This document shows positions 38,559-53,421 of a stretch of DNA of 64,000 bases, piece after piece. Position numbers and translations under genes: made by a program. Positions within the stretch are counted from its first letter, which is position 1. Every line of letters starts with the position of its first letter. Below the pieces are notes generated by a model. That model had not been told where the DNA came from, made no database searches, and saw nothing but the letters and a program-made list of their open reading frames with translations. Location: contig NC_014166.1 of assembly GCF_000092245.1 (NCBI RefSeq), positions 2,976,001 to 3,040,000 on the forward strand, written 5' to 3'. The DNA comes from Arcobacter nitrofigilis DSM 7299 (GTDB lineage: Bacteria > Campylobacterota > Campylobacteria > Campylobacterales > Arcobacteraceae).

Positions 38559-40250
38559 ATGGAGATAAGCACTCAAGCCTTTTTTGCTGCACTTCCTATA
38601 TTTGTTGCAGCTGTATTATTAGTTGGATTTAGATGGCCAGCTAAAAAAGCGATGCCAGTTGTATTTATAGTGACTGCACTTGTAGCCTTTTATGTATGGC
38701 AAGTAAGTTTTAATAGAATACTTGCATCATCAATTCAAGGTTTTTTGATTACCATAGCTGTTTTATGGATAATCTTTGGTGCAATTTTATTGTTAAATAC
38801 ACTTAAACACTCAGGAGCTATAAAAGCTATTAGAGAAGGGTTTAACAACGTAAGCCCAGATAGAAGGGTACAAGTTATTATCATAGCTTGGTTATTTGGT
38901 TCATTTATTGAGGGTGCATCTGGATTTGGAACACCAGCTGCTATTGCAGCTCCACTTTTGGTTGCTATTGGTTTCCCTGCCATGGCTGCTGTTATGATTG
39001 GAATGATGATTCAAAGTACACCTGTATCATTTGGTGCAGTTGGAACTCCAATTTTAATTGGTGTAAATAAGGGATTAGACTCTGATACTATTAGTCACTC
39101 TTTACAAGCAGTTGGTTCAAACTGGGATAGTTATTTACAAATAATCACTAGTGAAGTTGCAATCATTCATGCTATAACTGGAACATTGATTCCTCTATTT
39201 ATGACTATTATGATGACTAGATTTTTTGGTCAAAATAAATCATGGACAGAAGGATTATCAATCTTACCATTTGCTATTTTTGGTGGATTAGCCTTTACTA
39301 TTCCTTATGCACTTACAGGTGTATTTTTAGGTGCTGAGTTCCCATCACTAATTGGTGCTTTAGTTGGACTTCCAATTGTAGTATTTGCTGCAAAAAAAGG
39401 ATTCTTACTTCCTAAAGATTCTTGGGATTTTGCTCCAAAAGAAAAATGGCCAGTTCATTGGGTATCTAAACTTGAAATGAACATGGATGCAATGAATACA
39501 AAAATTGATATGTCTTTAGCAAAAGCTTGGATTCCATATGTGCTTGTTGCAATTATCTTAGTTATTACAAGAGTATCTAGTGAAGCAAAAGCTTTAGTTA
39601 CATCTTGGGTAATACCTTTCAAAAATATTTTAGGTGAAGGCTTAGGTTATTCTATTACTCCTTTATATTTACCAGGTGGGATTTTAGTATTTGTTGTGTT
39701 GATTACTTATTTCTTACATAAAATGGAATTTAAAGAGATGCAAGCTTCACTAAGTGAATCTTCAAAAGTAATGTTAGGTGCTGGGTTTGTTCTTGTATTT
39801 ACTATTCCATTAGTTAGAATTCTTATCAATTCTGGAGTAAATGCTTCTGGGTTTGAGTCTATGCCTGTTGCTATGGCAAAATATGTAGCACACTCTGTTG
39901 GTGATATTTATCCACTGTTTGCCCCATTAGTTGGTGCATTGGGAGCATTTATTGCAGGAAGTAATACTGTTTCAAATATGATGTTAAGTCAATTTCAATT
40001 TGGTGTTGCTGATGCACTTGGTCTTTCAACTGCACTTATGATAGCTCTTCAAGCAGTTGGAGCAGCAGCTGGAAATATGATAGCAATTCACAATGTTGTT
40101 GCAGCTTCGGCTACTGTTGGCTTACTTGATCAAGAGGGTGAAACATTAAGAAAAACCATAATACCTACTATTTATTATTGTTTAATTGCAGGAATTCTTG
40201 GTTTAATTTCTATGTATTATTTAGGAATAACAGATCCATTAGTTAAATAA
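38559..40250 (+). CDS. lctP: L-lactate permease
   Basis: Lactate:H+ symporter of the LctP family, 563 residues with about 13-14 membrane helices. The conserved [23 protein letters not shown] block and the late [14 protein letters not shown] and [16 protein letters not shown] segments are characteristic. AAGGAG lies 7 bases before the ATG. No lactate dehydrogenase gene is nearby. It stands alone with a hairpin after it, and gives the cell lactate or glycolate as a carbon and electron source. Confidence 0.93.
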
Positions 40251-43483: not shown

Positions 43484-44047
43484 ATGATACTTGATTATGA
43501 AAAGATAGATGATTTAACTAAATACAAAATCATGTCAGATACAGTAGTTCCAAGACCCATTGCATGGATAGTAACAGAAGATAATGGCATTTTAAATGCA
43601 GCTCCTTTTTCATACTTTATTCCAATATCAAGTAATCCAGCGACTTTAATTGTATCTATTGGAATAAAAGATGATGGAACTCCAAAAGATAGCTTAGCAA
43701 ATATCTTAAAAACAAAAAAAGCCACAATTTGTTTTGCAAATAAGGACAATGTAGACAAAGTAAAACTATGTTCTACTATGCTAAAAAAAGAACAGAGTGA
43801 AATAAAAGAGTACGATATAGAAGTGCAAAAAATACTTGAGGATTTTCCACCTATGATTTGCTCTTCTCAAAGTGCTTTGTTTTGTGAATATTACGACACA
43901 GTGAAAATTCCTGGAAAAACTACACCTCTTATTTTAGAGATAAAAAAGCAGTTCATAGAAGATGATAGAATCAATGAAAAAATGCATGTAAATGTGGAAA
44001 ATATCGGAAGAAGTGGAGCTTTCTTTAAAGCTATGGTAGACCTTTAA
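43484..44047 (+). CDS. Flavin reductase-like FMN-binding split-barrel protein
   Basis: A 187-residue protein of the flavin reductase-like family. Typical segments are [38 protein letters not shown] and the KDSLANI motif after it, which form the FMN-binding split barrel. Such proteins reduce FMN or FAD with NAD(P)H, or use bound flavin for unknown substrates. No paired monooxygenase is present. The end overlaps the convergent fumC gene by 4 bases. Confidence 0.82.
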
Positions 44048-45444
44048 ATCTTAGGTCTTACCATCTCTTGGGGTTTTACATACTCCTCAAACTCTTTTTC
44101 ACTAAGTATTCCCAATCTTAGCGCTTCTTCTTTTAAAGTTGTTCCATTTTTATGTGCAGTTTTTGCTATAAGTGCTGCTTTTTCATAACCAATATATGGA
44201 TTTAATGCAGTTACAAGCATCAAAGAATCATTTAAGTATTTTTCTATATTTTTATTATTTGCACTTATTCCAACTGCACAATTATCATTAAAGGCTTTCA
44301 TAGTATCACTTAAGAGTCTAATTGACTGCAAAATATTATAAGCAATCACAGGCTTAAAGACATTTAATTCAAAATTTCCTTGACTAGCGCTAATACTAAC
44401 TGTTGTATGGTTTCCCATAACTTGAACAGCAACCATTGTCATAGCTTCACTTTGGGTTGGATTTACTTTTCCAGGCATAATTGAACTTCCCGGTTCATTT
44501 TCTGGGATATTTAACTCTCCTATTCCACATCTAGGACCTGAAGCTAACCATCTTATATCATTTGCCATTTTCATCAGATTACTAGCTAAGGCATTTAAGG
44601 CTCCACTTAAAAAAACTTCTCCATCATGGGAAGTTAAAGAGTGAAATTTATTTGGATGTGAGATAAATTTATAGTTTGTATTAGTATTTATATTCAAGTT
44701 TTCACAAACAAGGCGCGAAAAATCTGGATGAGAATTTAGTCCTGTACCAACAGCCGTTCCTCCAATAGCAAGTTCACAAATATACTTCATACTGTCATCT
44801 ATTTGATTTAATGCTTTTTCTAACATCTCAACATAAGCTGAAAACTCTTGTCCTAAAGTAAGTGGTGTAGCATCTTGAAGATGTGTTCTTCCTATTTTAA
44901 TAATATCTTCAAACTCTTTTGTTTTATTTTCTAGGGTTGTTTTTAGTTTATTTATTGATGGGATTAGTTGTTTTTGTAACTCTAAAACAAAAGCTATTCT
45001 CATGGCACTAGGATATGTGTCATTTGAACTTTGACCTTTATTTACATCATCATTTGGATGAATTAATTTTTCAACTCTAAAATCTTTTCCTAAAAGTTCA
45101 GTTGCTCTTGAAGCTATTACTTCATTTAAATTCATATTTGATTGGGTTCCACTTCCTGTTTGCCAAACAGCTAAAGGAAAATTATCATCAAGTTTTCCCT
45201 CAATTATTTCATCACAAACTTTACTTATAACATCTTTTTTTTCTATTGGAAGTTTTTTTAAATCGAAATTTACTATTGCGCATGATTTTTTTAAATATGC
45301 AAAAGCTTTGATTATCTCTTTTGGCATTTTTTCAATACCTATGGGAAAGTTTTCCAAACTTCTTTGGGTCTGAGCTGCCCAATATTTGTCATTTGGAACC
45401 TTGATTTCTCCCATAGTATCTTTTTCAATTCTATCATCCATCAT
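44044..45444 (-). CDS. fumC: Fumarate hydratase class II
   Basis: Oxygen-stable, iron-free fumarase interconverting fumarate and malate; 466 residues, full length. The superfamily signature [11 protein letters not shown] is present. Other conserved blocks are [35 protein letters not shown] and [12 protein letters not shown]. Two Met codons open the frame and either could start. It converges with the flavin reductase gene. It is close to the C5-dicarboxylate operon, and its product malate is a possible end product of that operon. Confidence 0.95.
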
Positions 45445-45501: not shown

Positions 45502-46344
45502 TTATTGAACTATTTGATGAAGTTTAGAACACTGTGAAAGTAATACATCTGACCCTGACATATCGTGTAAAATATCTTCAAAAGAGTGAAAGTGGGCATT
45601 ATAAACATATATAAATATTTCATCCCCTTTTTCTAAATAGTGATGTTTCCCAAACTCAGTATAAGCAGTAGCCCCTGCTGCTATTAAGATACCTTTTTTA
45701 TTATTTATTTCTTTGAAATATTGAGGTAAGGCTTCAAGTGGACCTACTTCTTCTTGGGTATTAAATTTATCTATCATCCAATCTTTTAATTGACCAAAAA
45801 AGTATGAATATGAATTTACAGCACTAATTGTTCCATAATCATGTACAATTCCATCTCTTTTTAAAAATGAAGCAATATGGTATTTGTTTAAAATTCCAGC
45901 TTCATCAAAACTATCTATTTCAATAAATTCTGGTGCAATTCCCTTTGATGATTTTCCCCAATTTTTTTTAGTGCTTAACATCTTCCCATCTTGCACCCTA
46001 TTTGAGCAATCATTAAATGCTCCAAAATATCTTGGTTTTAAATCTACTAATTTGTTATTTTCATATACAAAATCACAAATTAATCCTACTTCTGCTTCAA
46101 CTTGTAAATGCTCTATTCCATTATGATTTATCTTATCTGTACAAATAGGAAATTGTCCTAAATAACTCTCCTCATTTGGAATATAAAAAGGAAATAATCC
46201 TTTTGGAGCATCTTTTTCCTCTGTTTTGATTACTGAAAACTCATCTGCTTCACCTGCTTCCCCTAAGTGATTTGCGAAGTTTCCTGCAACACCAAAACCT
46301 AAATAATCTTTTAAGTCTTCTGTATTTATATTGTATTTTTTCAT
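45502..46344 (-). CDS. DUF5718-like protein, unknown function
   Basis: A 280-residue soluble protein. I recognise it only as resembling the DUF5718 proteins of Campylobacterota; no catalytic motif is evident. Features include GFGVAGNFANHLGEAGEADEF near the start, HLQVEAEVGLICDFVYENNK in the middle (a segment recalling fumarylacetoacetate-hydrolase-like folds) and a C-terminal MSGSDVLLSQCSKLHQIV. It lies 57 bp upstream of fumC on the same strand and may be co-transcribed. A GC-rich block sits about 120 bp before its start. Confidence 0.6.
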   Translation of the reverse strand: MKKYNINTEDLKDYLGFGVAGNFANHLGEAGEADEFSVIKTEEKDAPKGLFPFYIPNEESYLGQFPICTDKINHNGIEHLQVEAEVGLICDFVYENNKLVDLKPRYFGAFNDCSNRVQDGKMLSTKKNWGKSSKGIAPEFIEIDSFDEAGILNKYHIASFLKRDGIVHDYGTISAVNSYSYFFGQLKDWMIDKFNTQEEVGPLEALPQYFKEINNKKGILIAAGATAYTEFGKHHYLEKGDEIFIYVYNAHFHSFEDILHDMSGSDVLLSQCSKLHQIVQ

Positions 46345-46601: not shown

Positions 46602-47585
46602 TTAAGCAAAAAATCTTTTTTCTACCTCATCTTGAAGTTTTCCACCAGAGAATTTAGCTCTTTGAACTAGTTCCCAAAAGTATCTATATGTTGCTCTATC
46701 GTGTAGTTCACCATCATATTGAATTGGTCCCCACTCGTGATCTTGTGCAGCTAATAAAATATTTTGTGCAGCTTCAAGTTCTGTAAAATCTGGTTTCATA
46801 GCATCTACGATCGCTTGTACTTGTGTTGGATAGATTGACCACATTCTCATAAATCCAAACTCATTTCTTGCTCTCTCTGCGTCTTTAAATGTTTGATATG
46901 GATTTTTTAAATCTAAAGTTACATTGTGACAAGGAATAACATGATTTTCAATAGCTGCTTGACATACTTTTGCTTTAGCAGCTGCAATTAATCTATGTTC
47001 AAATTGTCCTGGACTTCTCATATTAATAGCAGCAATTGCACCTTGATAACCAGAAACAAAGTCCATAAGACCGAAATCTAAAACTTGTAACCAAGGTAAG
47101 GTTGCAGTTTTTTCAACATCTCTTAATGCTCCATGAGTTTCAATTAAAATATGAATAGGAATCTCTCTTTTTATTCCAGCTTCTTTTGCCACTTTTTGAA
47201 TATACTCAATTTGAGTTTTTGCATCTTCATAACAAGTAGATTTTGGCAGAGTAATATATGCCAGTTTTTCACCAGCACCCGGAACTAAAATATCAATATC
47301 TTGTCTCCAATCAGGGTGTGAGAAATCATGGATTCTAGTCCCTGCCATAGCATAAGGATTTGCATCAGAGTTTACAACTCTAACAATCATCTCTGCATGT
47401 TCAACTTCTTTTCCTGTTTCTGCTCCATCTTCACAATCACAAGTGATATCAAAAACTGGTCCTAGTTTTTTTTGCATTTCAAAACCTTTTAGGATTAGCT
47501 TTTCGCTACCTGCAAAGTGCTCACAAGTTGGGATGATTGGTAAAGATTTTCCCGATTCAAATAATGCTTCGTTTGGATGTGTCAT
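46602..47585 (-). CDS. CoA ester lyase, CitE/malyl-CoA lyase-like
   Basis: HpcH/HpaI aldolase-type TIM-barrel enzyme of 327 residues. The acidic metal and CoA-site motifs are intact: TCDCEDGAETG (about 48-58), ILIETHGAL with its glutamate, and DFGLMDF with its aspartate. Relatives cleave malyl-CoA, methylmalyl-CoA or citramalyl-CoA to acetyl- or propionyl-CoA plus glyoxylate or pyruvate. With the neighbouring mesaconyl-CoA hydratase, cleavage of beta-methylmalyl-CoA to propionyl-CoA and glyoxylate is the best guess. It is the last gene of the operon, 20 bp after the hydratase. Confidence 0.8.
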   Translation of the reverse strand: MTHPNEALFESGKSLPIIPTCEHFAGSEKLILKGFEMQKKLGPVFDITCDCEDGAETGKEVEHAEMIVRVVNSDANPYAMAGTRIHDFSHPDWRQDIDILVPGAGEKLAYITLPKSTCYEDAKTQIEYIQKVAKEAGIKREIPIHILIETHGALRDVEKTATLPWLQVLDFGLMDFVSGYQGAIAAINMRSPGQFEHRLIAAAKAKVCQAAIENHVIPCHNVTLDLKNPYQTFKDAERARNEFGFMRMWSIYPTQVQAIVDAMKPDFTELEAAQNILLAAQDHEWGPIQYDGELHDRATYRYFWELVQRAKFSGGKLQDEVEKRFFA

Positions 47586-47605: not shown

Positions 47606-48670
47606 TTATTTTTGTTTTTTTGGTATAACTACAGTGTAGTCTAAGTCTAATACAACTTCTTTTTTATACTTTCCATTTTCATCAAAAGTAGTATCAAAAG
47701 TTTCTGGTCTATGGTTTTTAAGAGCTACTGTTCTTAGTCTCAATAGTCCCAAATCTTCTCTTTTATGCTCAATAGTTTCAACTACTTCAGTATAGGCATA
47801 AATAGTATCTCCTGCATATGTTGGGTTTGCATGAGCTCCACTATTTATAGAATAAATCCATTGGGCATTTTGTAAACCATTAAATGAAATACTTCTAGCT
47901 ATTGAAATAACATGTCCACCATACATAAGTCTTTGACCCATTGGAGTAGATTTCATCATAAAATCATCAAAATGTACTTTTGCATTATTTTGATAAAGTT
48001 TAGTTGCAAGTGTATGATCACTATCATCAATAGTAATACCTTCTGCATGATTTAATCTCTCACCTGCTTCATAGTCTTCAAAAAAATAATTTCCACCAGT
48101 TACATCTGTATTTATATCTTTTAAAACTGGGATATTTATCTCTTCTTTTATGGCTTGAGTTTTTGCAAAAGTTGGAACTATATTTATTCCACTCATTTCA
48201 CCTTTGTTTCTTTTGTGAACCATAACCCATCTTTTAAGATTTAGAACCTCATTTTCATCTTGATTATATCCAATAGAGTGAACATAAACCACTCCACTTT
48301 TACCATTTGAGTTCTCTTTTAAACCTATAATTTCAGTCTCAAGTCTAACAGTATCTCCTACAAATACGGGATTAGGGAAAGATACTTCTGCATAACCCAA
48401 GTTTGCAATTGCATTTAAAGAGATATCTTGAACAGATTTTCCAAATGTCAAATGAAACATCAATAAATCATCAAGTGGTTTTTTTGTATAACCCATCTCT
48501 TGAGCTAAAATATCCGATGAATTTAAAGAAAATCTACTTCCAGTAAGAGCGATGTAAAAAGATACATCACCATCACTTATTGTTCTTGGAAGTGGATGAA
48601 CTATTTTTTGACCAATTTCAAAATCTTCAAAGAAGTTCCCAAAATTAATTTTAGTACTTATTTTAGACAT
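47606..48670 (-). CDS. mch: Mesaconyl-CoA hydratase (double hot-dog MaoC-like)
   Basis: A 354-residue MaoC-type hydratase with two hot-dog halves (about 10-170 and 195-345). The N-terminus NFGNFFEDFEIGQKIVHPLP and the block LTFGKSVQDISLNAIANLGYAEV follow the pattern of Rhodobacter mesaconyl-C1-CoA hydratase (beta-methylmalyl-CoA dehydratase), as does NSNGKSGVVYVHS. The reaction is mesaconyl-CoA + water to beta-methylmalyl-CoA. It starts 9 bp after the ligase fusion gene and precedes the lyase. An itaconyl-CoA hydratase role is an alternative, but the length and N-terminal pattern favour mesaconyl-CoA. Confidence 0.8.
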   Translation of the reverse strand: MSKISTKINFGNFFEDFEIGQKIVHPLPRTISDGDVSFYIALTGSRFSLNSSDILAQEMGYTKKPLDDLLMFHLTFGKSVQDISLNAIANLGYAEVSFPNPVFVGDTVRLETEIIGLKENSNGKSGVVYVHSIGYNQDENEVLNLKRWVMVHKRNKGEMSGINIVPTFAKTQAIKEEINIPVLKDINTDVTGGNYFFEDYEAGERLNHAEGITIDDSDHTLATKLYQNNAKVHFDDFMMKSTPMGQRLMYGGHVISIARSISFNGLQNAQWIYSINSGAHANPTYAGDTIYAYTEVVETIEHKREDLGLLRLRTVALKNHRPETFDTTFDENGKYKKEVVLDLDYTVVIPKKQK

Positions 48671-48679
48671 TTTTCTTCC

Positions 48680-51199
48680 TTATTTACCAAATAGATTTTG
48701 ACCTAAAGATTTATATGTTTCATAAAGAGTTATCATCTTTTTAGCCCATTTGATTCTACTAATATCAACAAGTTTATCCTGATATAAAATCACTTCTTTA
48801 CCATCTTTTACAGCATCTTCATATAAAGAAATCATCTCTTCATACTCTTTTACTTCTTCTCTTTTTGGAGTAAAGATATCATTTATGTACTCTATTTGTA
48901 CAGGATGAACTAAAGCTTTTCCATCAAATCCTAAATCAAAAGCATCTTTTGTAGAATCTTCACAAGCAAACTCATCATGTACATCATAATGTGGTCCATC
49001 AATTACTACTTTATCATAAGCTTTAGCAGCAAGTGCTATTTGAGATAGATAATTAATAATAGCTTTTGAACCTTTTTTTACATCTATTTGAAGTCTATTT
49101 GCAAGTTTATTAGAACCTGCAACTATAACTTCAACTCTAGAAGTTGCAGCACATATCTCTTGAATATTTAAAACTGCCAAGGGTGACTCTATCATTATCA
49201 TCATCGTTAATTCAGAATTTACCTCATCAATTAATTTTGCTGCTGCTAGAACATCTTCTTTATTATCAATTTTAGAAAAAAGTATTCCATCAAGCTCTAG
49301 CTCTTTTGCAAGTTCTAAATCCTTTTGTAAGTCTTCACTTCCTAAATTATTAACCCTAAGAACTCTTTCTGATTCTCCAAATTTTGAACCCTCTTCTTTA
49401 AATACCTCTTTTAAAACAGCTCTTCCAGCCTCTTTTTGTTCTGTTAAAATAGCTTCCAAATCAAAAATTACTGTATCTGCTAAAACAGTTTTTGCTTTTT
49501 TCACATACTTTTTATTGTATGAAGGAACATATAAAAGTGATCTTCTCGCTTTATATTCTATAATCTCTTCCCCAACACTTAAAGCAGCCTCTTGTTCATG
49601 GATGTTCTTAACAAGTTGTTTTCTTAAAACTTTACCATTTTTAGTTCTTGGATAATCACTCATGGCAAATATTCTTTTAGGCGCTTTGTATTTTGCCAAG
49701 TTATCTTGAGAATATTTTAAAATCTCAGCCTCTTCTTCTTGGCTTAAAGGTTTATGTCCAATCACTGCAATAGCAACTAAGGTTTTATCTTTTTCAATAT
49801 CTAAACCAAAAGCAACACAATCAGCAACTTTATCATGGGTTTTTACAACTCTTTCAATCTCATGTGGAGATACTCTAAAGCCAAAGGTATTGATAATATC
49901 ATCTTTTCTACCTATGAACCAAATATATCCATCCTTGTCTTTTTTAGCATAATCACCTGTAAAAAAGTATCCATCATGTTTAGCTTTTGCTGTTTCATCG
50001 TCCAATTGCCAATACTCTAAAAATAAACCTGGATCATCAACTCCAATACAAATCATTCCCTCTTCTTCAGTTCCCACTTCTTCTAAAGTATTTGGATCTA
50101 ACAGTTTTACGATATGTCCTGGTTGCACAAAGCCTGCACTTCCTGGTCTTATTGGATTATTAACAGAGTGTGAAATATAATAAGAACATTCACTCATACC
50201 TATTGCTTCATAAATATCTTGTTTAAATCTTTCTCTCCAAAGTCCTAACATCTCATCTGATAAATGTTCTCCTGCACTCATGCAATATCTTAAACTTGGA
50301 CAATCATCTATTTTGAAATCAGTTTTTTGAATAATTTGTCTATAAATAGTTGGAACTCCAATAAAAATAGTACATTTATGTTTTTTGATTAGATTTATCC
50401 AAGTTGAAGCATCATTTGCACCTTCATATGCAATAACTGTATGACCATTATATAAAGGATCCATCAAAGCAGAACCTAAAACATAAGTCCAGTTAAATTT
50501 TCCAGAATGCATGATTCTGTCATTTTCTTTGAAGTTAAACCAATACTCAGTTGCAGGAGTTCTTCCCACAAGTGATCTATGAGAGTGTAAAACTCCCTTT
50601 GGATAACCAGTTGTTCCTGATGTATATACTAAATATGCTGGTTCACCTGATTTTGATTTATAGTGATTTGGTGTTGCATCACCATTTTTTAAAATCTCAC
50701 TTAAGGCATACACATTTATACCTTTTGGTTTTTTAAGATTATCTACACTATCAATAGCTGCTACAATTATTGTCTTTAAGTTATCTACATTTTCTAAATA
50801 TGGAACTAGGTTTTCATACATAGTTGCAGACATAACAATTGCACTTGCTTGTGAATCTTCTGCAAGATATTTAACCTCAGAACCACTTAAAAGTGTAGAA
50901 GTTGGAACTGCAATGATTCCAGCTTTTATTGCCCCAAAAAATGAAATTGGATAAGCCAATGAATTTTTTAAACAAACTAAAACCCTATCCCTTGCTCCAA
51001 TTCCGATACTTGTAAGGAAATTTGCAACTTGGTCAGATTTTTTAGCTAAATCTTTATATGTTATTTCATCAGTACCTAATTTATCATCTTCTATAACCAT
51101 TGCTGTACTATTCTCTTTTGGTGTTCCCAAATGAGATGATGTACAAGCAACCCCAATATTTAAAAATTCAGGTACTTCGATTTTAATAGTTGAACTCAT
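48680..51199 (-). CDS. Acyl-CoA ligase fused to a CitE-like domain
   Basis: A two-domain protein of 839 residues. The first 540 or so are an ANL-family AMP-forming acyl-CoA ligase: YLVYTSGTTGYPKGVLHSH is the P-loop, GDYAKKDKDGY the hinge-region aspartate, DDIINTFGFRVSPHEIE the A8 motif, and PRTKNGKVLRKQL carries the catalytic lysine. From residue 552 a CitE/HpcH-like barrel follows (RRSLLYVPSYNKKYVKKA). In it, the usual LED motif reads FDLEAI and the metal aspartate position reads GSNKLANRL, so two acidic residues are lost while R63 and E120 of the domain remain. I infer a ligase for a dicarboxylic acid with a modified or structural aldolase partner. Confidence 0.8.
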   Translation of the reverse strand: MSSTIKIEVPEFLNIGVACTSSHLGTPKENSTAMVIEDDKLGTDEITYKDLAKKSDQVANFLTSIGIGARDRVLVCLKNSLAYPISFFGAIKAGIIAVPTSTLLSGSEVKYLAEDSQASAIVMSATMYENLVPYLENVDNLKTIIVAAIDSVDNLKKPKGINVYALSEILKNGDATPNHYKSKSGEPAYLVYTSGTTGYPKGVLHSHRSLVGRTPATEYWFNFKENDRIMHSGKFNWTYVLGSALMDPLYNGHTVIAYEGANDASTWINLIKKHKCTIFIGVPTIYRQIIQKTDFKIDDCPSLRYCMSAGEHLSDEMLGLWRERFKQDIYEAIGMSECSYYISHSVNNPIRPGSAGFVQPGHIVKLLDPNTLEEVGTEEEGMICIGVDDPGLFLEYWQLDDETAKAKHDGYFFTGDYAKKDKDGYIWFIGRKDDIINTFGFRVSPHEIERVVKTHDKVADCVAFGLDIEKDKTLVAIAVIGHKPLSQEEEAEILKYSQDNLAKYKAPKRIFAMSDYPRTKNGKVLRKQLVKNIHEQEAALSVGEEIIEYKARRSLLYVPSYNKKYVKKAKTVLADTVIFDLEAILTEQKEAGRAVLKEVFKEEGSKFGESERVLRVNNLGSEDLQKDLELAKELELDGILFSKIDNKEDVLAAAKLIDEVNSELTMMIMIESPLAVLNIQEICAATSRVEVIVAGSNKLANRLQIDVKKGSKAIINYLSQIALAAKAYDKVVIDGPHYDVHDEFACEDSTKDAFDLGFDGKALVHPVQIEYINDIFTPKREEVKEYEEMISLYEDAVKDGKEVILYQDKLVDISRIKWAKKMITLYETYKSLGQNLFGK

Positions 51200-51211: not shown

Positions 51212-52345
51212 CTATATTTGACCATAAGGCCAGTTTTCTTTAAACGTATGTAACGGCATTTTATTTAATACTGTCAAGGCAAAAGCTTGATCCTCTTTAC
51301 TTAAACTTCTAAGTGCATATCCTCTTAAAAGGTTTTGTAAAGATTTACCAAACATCGGTGGATCTAGCATCTCACCTTTATACCTAATAGCTCCACTTAA
51401 AAGTGCATCTGCTTCAATTGCAGCACTTAATATTTCTATATCTTTTGCTATTTCTTTAGGACTTGGAGTAAAAGCAACTTTACAAACATTTATATGGTTT
51501 GGAGTAATTACTTGTTTACCTGTTAATCCCATAGCTGTCTCTCTTTTAGCATGTTCATAAACATGTCTTGAAGCATTATCTCCATGTAAATCTAACCATC
51601 TTCTAATATCTTTTTTCTCAACACAAGAATCAGGTAATGAATTAGGAGTAAGTAAAACTTCAACCCCTCCAATTACACCTTTACCTTTTATTCTAGCTTC
51701 CATTGTAAGCATATTAAAAAATGTCTCTAACTCATCAATCCAACCCTCAGGTGTGATTTTATATGCCATTGCTTTTGAGAAGTCATGGATACCAAATACC
51801 ACATGTTGAACAGTTGAGTGACTCATAAGTCTATCAGCTATTTGAAGTGATTTTGGATGCTCAATGATTGGTTGAATTTGTAAACTACTACCAATAGATA
51901 CTAACCAAGAAGATAAATCTCTAATCTCAGCATCTCCATAAACCTCACCAGCTTTTGCTAATACAATTGCATCGATGTATTTATGAACTTGTTTTAACAT
52001 CTTTAAATCTTCTTCATACTCATCAGTTCTAAAAGGGTTAATTCTAATAGCTATTTGAAAATCCCTTTGAGGAAATTTTGGTAACTCTTGAATTAAAAGT
52101 TCCCTACTCATAGCTTTTTGTCTACAACCATCTTCTAAATCAAATAACACTGTATGTGCTTTTGTTTTATAAGCGTGTTTTTGAAGTCTAAGTTTTGCTT
52201 GCTCCATAGTCTCATAGCTTCCATCTAGTGGATTAAACTTAATTGGAGGATAATATATTTGAATCCCTGGCCAATATCCACCAAGTACTGGTTTCAAATC
52301 GTCGTTTGCTGTTAGTTTTGATAAATCTATTACAGAAGAAGTCAT
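51212..52345 (-). CDS. HpcH/HpaI aldolase/CitE-type protein (possible malyl-CoA lyase or thioesterase)
   Basis: A 377-residue member of the same superfamily as the other CoA ester lyase, but longer and of a different subgroup. Key motifs are intact: VLFDLEDGCRQKAMSRE, IQPIIEHPKSLQIAD and HVVFGIHDFSKAMAY. R-x-N-P-F in IAIRINPFRTDEYEED is the likely CoA-phosphate region. In Rhodobacter, paralogous Mcl1 and Mcl2 act as malyl-CoA lyase and malyl-CoA thioesterase, and a similar split is possible here. It is the first gene of the operon, read away from the IclR regulator gene; AAGG precedes its ATG. Confidence 0.75.
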   Translation of the reverse strand: MTSSVIDLSKLTANDDLKPVLGGYWPGIQIYYPPIKFNPLDGSYETMEQAKLRLQKHAYKTKAHTVLFDLEDGCRQKAMSRELLIQELPKFPQRDFQIAIRINPFRTDEYEEDLKMLKQVHKYIDAIVLAKAGEVYGDAEIRDLSSWLVSIGSSLQIQPIIEHPKSLQIADRLMSHSTVQHVVFGIHDFSKAMAYKITPEGWIDELETFFNMLTMEARIKGKGVIGGVEVLLTPNSLPDSCVEKKDIRRWLDLHGDNASRHVYEHAKRETAMGLTGKQVITPNHINVCKVAFTPSPKEIAKDIEILSAAIEADALLSGAIRYKGEMLDPPMFGKSLQNLLRGYALRSLSKEDQAFALTVLNKMPLHTFKENWPYGQI

Positions 52346-52695: not shown

Positions 52696-53421
52696 TTGCA
52701 AAATCAAAATAAGTCATTAACAAAAGGTTTATTGATTTTAAAATCAATCATGCATTCAAAAAAACCTTTAACAGCTAATTTTTTATGTCAAACCCATGAT
52801 ATAGATAAAAGTACCATGTCAAGACTTATCACAACTTTGGTAAATGAAGGGTTTATTGAATATGTTGAAAACTCTAAGGAGATAGTTTTAAGTGATATTA
52901 TGAATAATATATCACAGATGGAAGCAAGAGATAAAATAGTTGAGAAAACAAGAACTTTGCTTGATGAAATATTTTATTTAACTCAAGAGTGTTCATATAT
53001 AGGAATACTTGAAAAAGATGCCGTTTTATATTTAAATCAAGTGGATAAATCAAATCGAGTTTTAAAAACAAAAGACTCAATAGGTCTACATGCCCCACTA
53101 CATGCAAATGCCTTTGGAAAAGTTTTATTAGCATATGAAAATGTTGATTTTAGAACTTTAGATTTGAAAAAATACACAGCAAATACAATTACTACTGTTA
53201 CAAGATTAAAAAAAGAGATTGAAGAAGTGAAACAAAATGGTTATGCCATTGGTTTTGAAGAGTACGAATTTGGACTTTTTTCAATAGCTGTTCCATACTT
53301 CAACAATAAAAAAGAGTTTGTAGGAACACTTGGAATATCTGGATTATCTGCAAGGGTAAATAAAGAAAAATCTCATGAACTAGGTAAAAAAATATTTAAT
53401 TTAGTTAATCCTATTATTTAA
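52696..53421 (+). CDS. IclR-family transcriptional regulator
   Basis: A 241-residue regulator. The winged helix-turn-helix is at about 8-65 (SLTKGLLILKSIMHSKKPLT, then DIDKSTMSRLITTLVNEGFIEY). The C-terminal effector-binding domain (about 75-240) has GLHAPLHANAFGKVLLAY and YAIGFEEYEFGLFSIAVPYF. The start is TTG at 52696-52698 with GAGAAA upstream; the next Met lies inside the helix-turn-helix and would destroy it. It faces the CoA operon across 350 bp, the classic layout for a local regulator; an organic acid or CoA ester is its probable ligand. It overlaps the lipoprotein gene by 4 bases tail to tail. Confidence 0.88.
   Translation: MQNQNKSLTKGLLILKSIMHSKKPLTANFLCQTHDIDKSTMSRLITTLVNEGFIEYVENSKEIVLSDIMNNISQMEARDKIVEKTRTLLDEIFYLTQECSYIGILEKDAVLYLNQVDKSNRVLKTKDSIGLHAPLHANAFGKVLLAYENVDFRTLDLKKYTANTITTVTRLKKEIEEVKQNGYAIGFEEYEFGLFSIAVPYFNNKKEFVGTLGISGLSARVNKEKSHELGKKIFNLVNPII

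Follow-up and report, generated by a model that had tools for sequence, protein, structure and literature searches.

The question raised by this locus, which lies in a 64 000-nucleotide stretch of the Arcobacter nitrofigilis DSM 7299 genome (hereafter the window), is what a CitE-like barrel can do once it has become the C-terminal half of an acyl-CoA ligase and has lost acidic residues of its metal site. The open reading frame at 48680-51199 (minus strand, 839 aa), whose coordinates and domain boundary were confirmed, encodes an AMP-forming acyl-CoA ligase joined to a CitE-like TIM barrel. Pfam analysis assigned residues 33-397 to the AMP-binding domain (PF00501, E = 9e-75), residues 447-523 to the AMP-binding_C domain (PF13193) and residues 553-766 to the HpcH_HpaI (CitE-like) domain (PF03328, E = 6e-31), in agreement with the original prediction that the ligase runs into such a barrel from about residue 552. 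The ligase half, with its core motifs intact, was taken as residues 1-540 (49580-51199, minus strand), and the TIM-barrel domain, whose model matches 5ugr and whose C-terminal lid runs beyond the Pfam match to the end of the protein, as residues 553-839 (48683-49543, minus strand). Among 54 fusions, the ligase motifs to which we assign the names A3, A5, A7, A8 and A10 were largely invariant, and the TSGTTGxPKG nucleotide-binding, TGD, hinge and C-terminal Lys motifs, as we take these to be defined for this half, were all found and were likewise largely invariant. As these motifs are so well kept, the ligase half is predicted to be active and should be so.

The 54 fusions are the distinct full-length sequences among 58 collected, four identical copies among the 58 having been left out together with the window fragments L001-L003 and the truncated L060. 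They were compared with 42 distinct standalone CitE-like proteins, namely CitE1 and CitE2 of the window, 12 plasmid hits, 20 proteins from genomes of the same class and eight from plasmid neighbourhoods, a set picked by similarity to the domain, to CitE1 or by hydratase neighbourhood rather than at random, and in which 13 of the 20 class proteins are close relatives of each other. According to the accessible part of Zarzycki and Kerfeld (PMC3832036), an Mg-binding Glu/Asp pair and a water-holding Glu/Asp pair are absolutely conserved throughout the CitE-like superfamily and the malate synthases; in the malyl-CoA lyase (MCL) of R. sphaeroides, Asp168 is a direct Mg ligand and Asp45 hydrogen-bonds the Mg-bound water. 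The fusion reads LEA at residues 581-583, where E582-A583 (49451-49456, minus strand) is by alignment the remnant of LED with the water-holding Asp gone, and GSNKLANRL at residues 695-703, where K698 of G695-S696-N697-K698 (49106-49117, minus strand) stands at the place of the Mg-ligand Asp168. The operon paralogues hold the acids, CitE1 reading CED...GLMDF and CitE2 LED...GIHDF. The claim that the CitE domain of the fusion has lost two conserved acidic positions is thereby well supported, no acid being present at 583 or 698 in any of the 54 distinct full-length fusions, and a search for close fusions with the full motif found none among them. Position 583 is Ala in 49, Gly in four and Met in one of the fusions, and position 698 is Lys in 45, Thr in four, Asn in three and Ala and Ser in one each, while all 42 standalone relatives have both E and D at the LED site and D at the place of residue 698. 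With respect to the Mg-ligand pair (Glu141/Asp168 of MCL), Glu671 is kept and the Asp is missing in 54/54 fusions; with respect to the water-holding pair (Glu44/Asp45), Glu582 is present in 53/54 and the Asp is again missing in all. G-S-N at 695-697 is invariant (54/54), and no other acid appears to take over the metal site, residues 695-698 being non-acidic in all 54 fusions. The truncated fusion L060, which starts past residue 583, also has GSNK.

The metal Asp was placed at position 698 by the alignments with CLYBL and R. sphaeroides MCL and by the 42-protein alignment. The LED Asp aligned as a one-residue gap in some alignments (e.g. 5ugr and 4l9y) and stood opposite Ala in others (e.g. 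CLYBL), so that a deletion looks the same as a substitution. A one-residue shift would not restore the missing acid, as the HMMER alignment with M. tuberculosis CitE (6aq4) puts Asn697 opposite the motif Asp and neither Asn697 nor Lys698 is acidic. Chance or a sequencing fault was ruled out by the lack of an acid in every one of the distinct fusions, and recent local decay by a loss shared between two bacterial families, with domains 54-59% identical to that of the window. It is also unlikely that Lys698 serves as a newly acquired, conserved catalytic lysine (Schiff base), given T, N, A or S at this position in 9/54 fusions.

As a test of selective loss we used the 16 columns that are identical across the plasmid-borne standalone relatives (12/12). 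Four of these columns are lost in the fusions, the two Asp, P642 and G808; the fusions keep P559, D580, R593, N617, E671, G695, D734 and G757 in 54/54 and E582 and R615 in 53/54, and vary conservatively at L581 and K589. R615 (49355-49357, minus strand), equivalent to the catalytic Arg76 of R. sphaeroides MCL, is Arg in 53 fusions and Lys in one, with Arg in all 42 standalone relatives, and E671 (49187-49189, minus strand), equivalent to the Mg-ligand Glu141, is present in 54/54 fusions and 42/42 standalone proteins. The original prediction had named R63 and E120 of the domain as remaining, of which Glu120 (Glu671) was correct, whereas the arginine is domain residue 64 (Arg615). Missing from its list was the lid residue D812 (48764-48766, minus strand), which is also conserved (54/54) and is equivalent to Asp299 of MCL, a residue that completes the active site of the neighbouring subunit. 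Asn697 was invariant as well (54/54). Judged from these sequence comparisons, the loss is selective, the metal site being the main part gone from the pocket, and the pocket itself is under selection; the invariant E671, N697 and D812 and the nearly invariant R615 would suit catalysis no less than binding. Two fusions each depart at one pocket residue, L041 with E582A and L027 with R615K.

Both sequence family (PF03328, E = 6e-31) and TIM-barrel fold (Z 26.8) place the domain in the CitE-like superfamily. The domain model had a mean pLDDT of 78 and was usable for the barrel, with residues 193-205, 221-223 and 225-231 below 50; it superposed on the malyl-CoA lyase 5ugr with an rmsd of 2.3 over 222 residues, which is the alignment giving the above Z score, and also matched CLYBL and other CitE-like enzymes, the top Foldseek match being 4l9z (E = 8.5e-19). 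Alignments including the lid gave an rmsd of 9-10, and the lid in the domain model is thus placed unlike that of closed lyases. The whole-protein model, a single chain, was poor (mean pLDDT 60). Compared with the malyl-CoA/beta-methylmalyl-CoA lyases 4l9y, 5ugr and 4l80, the fusion has the same barrel (Z 25-27), the Arg, one metal Glu and the lid Asp, but lacks the metal Asp and the second Asp of LED. The best PDB sequence match of the domain was human CLYBL (5vxc, E = 1.4e-22, tied with 5ugr), in which, unlike in the fusion, the two sites read CED and GGED.

At a threshold of E 1e-60, matches to the fusion were obtained in 40 of 397 genomes of the class, 38 of them full-length fusions, of which 34 belonged to the 42 own-family genomes listed and four to genomes of another family; the remaining two matched the ligase half only, at 30% identity. 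CitE1 was found in the same 38 of the 397 genomes. A domain-profile search of these 397 genomes located all 38 copies inside long fused frames of 840-881 aa and revealed no unfused close relative of the domain, the next matches, no better than E 1e-38, being separate proteins some 300 aa long. No plasmid-borne fusion was seen among the matches listed (the best 30 of 3641 records), and 80% or more of the query was covered by at least four of the 3641 plasmid records, three of them annotated as separate genes and one unannotated. A scan of the viral collection gave no close relative of the domain, and neither did the phage collections, in which six records matched at 25-27% identity.

The genes on the minus strand are ordered CitE2, fusion, MaoC-type hydratase, CitE1, DUF5718 and a fumarase-like gene, and a divergent IclR-family regulator is located at 52696-53421 (plus strand; PF01614, PF09339). 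CitE2 (51212-52345, minus strand, 377 aa) and CitE1 (46602-47585, minus strand, 327 aa), both matching PF03328, keep the E, D, E and D of the two pairs and the lid D. These two and the fusion account for all three PF03328 matches above cut-off in the genome, a single contig of 3.19 Mb. CitE1 matched 3qqw by phmmer at E 6e-138, an entry named only 'putative citrate lyase'. The hydratase (47606-48670, minus strand, 354 aa; PF19315) is mesaconyl-CoA hydratase-like and starts 9 bases past the stop codon of the fusion; phmmer matched its residues 7-352 to 8hgn, a 'Beta-methylmalyl-CoA dehydratase', at E 1.6e-100, and its top NCBIfam match was RipB/Ich, whose cut-off of 340 bits was not reached (111 bits). 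In every locus read whose sequence extends far enough, the genes run CitE2-fusion-MaoC-CitE1.

From these gene neighbours, the substrate of the ligase is most likely a small dicarboxylate, mesaconate or a close C4-C5 relative. A route from mesaconate through mesaconyl-CoA and beta-methylmalyl-CoA to glyoxylate and propionyl-CoA, or its reverse, fits the cluster, and itaconate or citramalate routes are possible too. A similar route was proposed in the 2007 A. butzleri genome paper, with any of three CitE proteins as a possible malyl-CoA lyase (accessible part of PMC2147049). As two paralogues with all motif positions are present in the cluster, lyase activity could come from them, and CitE1 and CitE2 are better candidates for the lyase of the pathway than the fusion. 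In four of seven plasmid regions with a homologous hydratase/CitE1, a class III CoA transferase (checked by Pfam) stands beside these genes or a few genes away, and the other three regions list none; such a transferase was absent from the window genome and occurred in one of 61 genomes searched in its own family, a set that contains the window genome. In this cluster, the CoA ester would come from the ligase rather than from a class III CoA transferase. That the fusion replaced the transferase as a specific event is unsupported, since eight fusion-less genomes of the family are also without it. Malate synthase had no match in the window genome and was found in 6/61 genomes of the family, and the ICL-family hit of the window genome matched only in part, within a 300-aa frame.

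What the domain does for the ligase can be read in several ways. The one that we favour, with confidence that is about evenly balanced, is that the protein is an AMP-forming dicarboxylate-CoA ligase whose CitE domain, without metal-dependent aldol chemistry, acts as a CoA-ester-binding, trimerising module; such an oligomerising, non-aldolase module would combine the scaffold and the channel that the original prediction had offered, beside altered chemistry, as separate options, the present comparisons being compatible with all three. The ligase would make the CoA ester of a small dicarboxylic acid from ATP, and the metal-less barrel would not activate glyoxylate or pyruvate in the manner of its relatives. 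Having the Arg, one metal-ligand Glu and the lid Asp, the barrel probably still binds CoA esters. The domain probably trimerises, each lid closing the pocket of the next subunit, and the trimer would hold several ligase modules together, with the domain either keeping the CoA ester or passing it to the adjacent hydratase, CitE1 and CitE2. The importance of the lid is questionable in M. tuberculosis CitE, given that removal of 50 C-terminal residues reduced its activity by only about 6% (accessible part of PMC7164622).

The phylogenetic position of the domain bears on another reading, which we regard as unlikely, namely that it is a metal-independent acyl-CoA thioesterase of Mcl2-type descent that would hydrolyse one CoA ester, either a product or the wrong isomer, alongside the synthesis of another by the ligase. 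In the trees, the fusion domain groups with standalone proteins that have a lid Glu and read GTND (one GLND), with support values of 89/82 and 86/91, both below the star level of 95/80; the second tree was calculated without six near-copies and without CitE1 and CitE2, and the last eight proteins as well as any Mcl2 sequence are outside both trees. Eight of the 42 standalone proteins have a lid Glu, and the Asn of G-x-N-D occurs in seven of these eight and in no others, the lid Glu being the mark of the malyl-CoA thioesterase cluster (accessible part of PMC3832036). In Ruegeria sp. TM1040, a GTND-type gene is located near TCA-cycle genes and precedes, with two small genes between them, a gene for a MaoC-family hydratase that shares 46% identity with the hydratase of the window, and the fusion is located directly upstream of its own hydratase. 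We take mcl2 and mch of R. sphaeroides to be similarly close to each other. Based on the lid Glu and this gene order, the GTND proteins, which are the nearest standalone group by tree and carry a GTN motif, are likely the (3S)-malyl-CoA thioesterase (Mcl2) group of R. sphaeroides. The invariance of N697, E671 and D812 in the fusions is consistent with a thioesterase as well. However, the Mcl2 group keeps the Mg Asp and the lid Glu, whereas the fusions are without that Asp and carry Asp instead of Glu in the lid (D812, 54/54). Furthermore, the characterised enzymes of the superfamily, one thioesterase included, need Mg or Mn according to the accessible part of PMC3832036, and it would be futile to hydrolyse what the ligase itself has produced.

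The rate at which the domain evolves could suggest that it is nothing but a structural spacer or oligomerisation unit that binds no ligand. In 25/25 complete loci (not all of them independent, since some of L042-L062 belong to genomes already represented by an earlier locus, e.g. L035 and L054), conservation of the domain is below that of the ligase half, CitE1 and CitE2, and the stem branch of the fusion domain is long, at 2.1-2.3 changes per site. The invariant pocket residues would be unexpected in such a spacer, and the mean identity over 19 own-family loci, 75.6% for the domain and 76.9% for the hydratase, indicates that the domain, being about as conserved as the hydratase, is not simply decaying. 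We consider a ligand-free role improbable.

Little credence is given to a surviving metal-dependent lyase, in which Glu671 and Glu582, together with water and the substrate, would hold Mg without both Asp. In M. tuberculosis CitE, the D138A mutation lowered the activity significantly and bound Mg by about 70%, and D37A had no obvious effect (accessible part of PMC7164622). By motif, D138 would correspond to the lost Mg-ligand position and D37 to the second lost Asp, and as D37A was harmless and D138A weakened the enzyme but was not shown to kill it, some weak lyase activity could remain in the fusions, in which Glu582, Arg615, Glu671 and Asp812 are retained. On the other hand, the lysine at the metal-ligand position in 45/54 fusions should repel Mg, and not one of the 42 standalone relatives is without the Asp. 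That the domain has gained a metal-free CoA chemistry, for example a shift of CoA between the carboxyls of mesaconate in which E671 or D812 serves as the nucleophile or base, ligase and domain together filling the role of the class III mesaconyl-CoA C1-C4 transferase, seems very improbable, the absence of the transferase being no sign of a replacement when fusion-less genomes lack it too.

The fusion itself is already known, and it is the conserved loss of its metal site that appears to be new. AB1918 of A. butzleri, in the cluster ab1917-ab1921, was reported in 2007 as a fusion and possible malyl-CoA lyase, and by the description in the accessible part of that paper it is alike in architecture, with a CaiC domain at residues 50-550 and a CitE domain at 550-825, and in its neighbours, which are two CitE-like proteins, an enoyl-CoA hydratase and a fumarate hydratase (PMC2147049). 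Unlike here, AB1918 was read there as a possible lyase, and the loss of the metal site is unmentioned in that accessible part (PMC2147049); nor was any mention of the consistent metal-site loss found in the literature searched, which leaves most subscription journals outside. This loss argues against the malyl-CoA lyase idea of 2007 for fusions of the AB1918 type. Absolute conservation of the metal site has been stated for the superfamily and for the malate synthases, yet a ligase-fused lineage of 38 out of 397 genomes has lost it while most of the remaining pocket stays, and the capabilities of a metal-free CitE pocket can be tested cleanly on the fusion.

Beyond CitE1 the loci differ from one another. 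In the window, the DUF5718 gene (45502-46344, minus strand; PF18985, E = 1.2e-97) is followed by a class II fumarase-like gene (44044-45444, minus strand), classes I and II of the fumarase-like genes being our own assignment by eye from the sequence. Among the 28 loci from L034 on with a CitE1, 16 continue with a class I fumarase-like gene (L034, L035, L038, L043-L047, L049, L051-L054, L057, L060 and L061), one (L056) with class II and 11 with neither, although two of these 11 stop at CitE1 and some loci represent the same genome twice. The window, past DUF5718, and L056 point to a swap between unrelated fumarases at this one position, and the window genome has two class I fumarase matches outside the cluster. 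DUF5718 was found in all 17 own-family loci that extend 5 kb or more past CitE1, two of which are the same contig, and was absent from all four loci of the other family. In L028, two hydratase-like open frames follow the fusion, and since the space up to CitE1 fits one hydratase gene only, they are probably a single gene split by a frame change. In L040 and L041, which belong to the own family, the domain is about 57% identical to that of the window, as divergent as in the other family, with CitE1 and CitE2 about 90% identical, and an exchange of the fusion gene alone is possible. An LctP-family permease is encoded near the cluster at 38559-40250 of the window, and likewise in L056.
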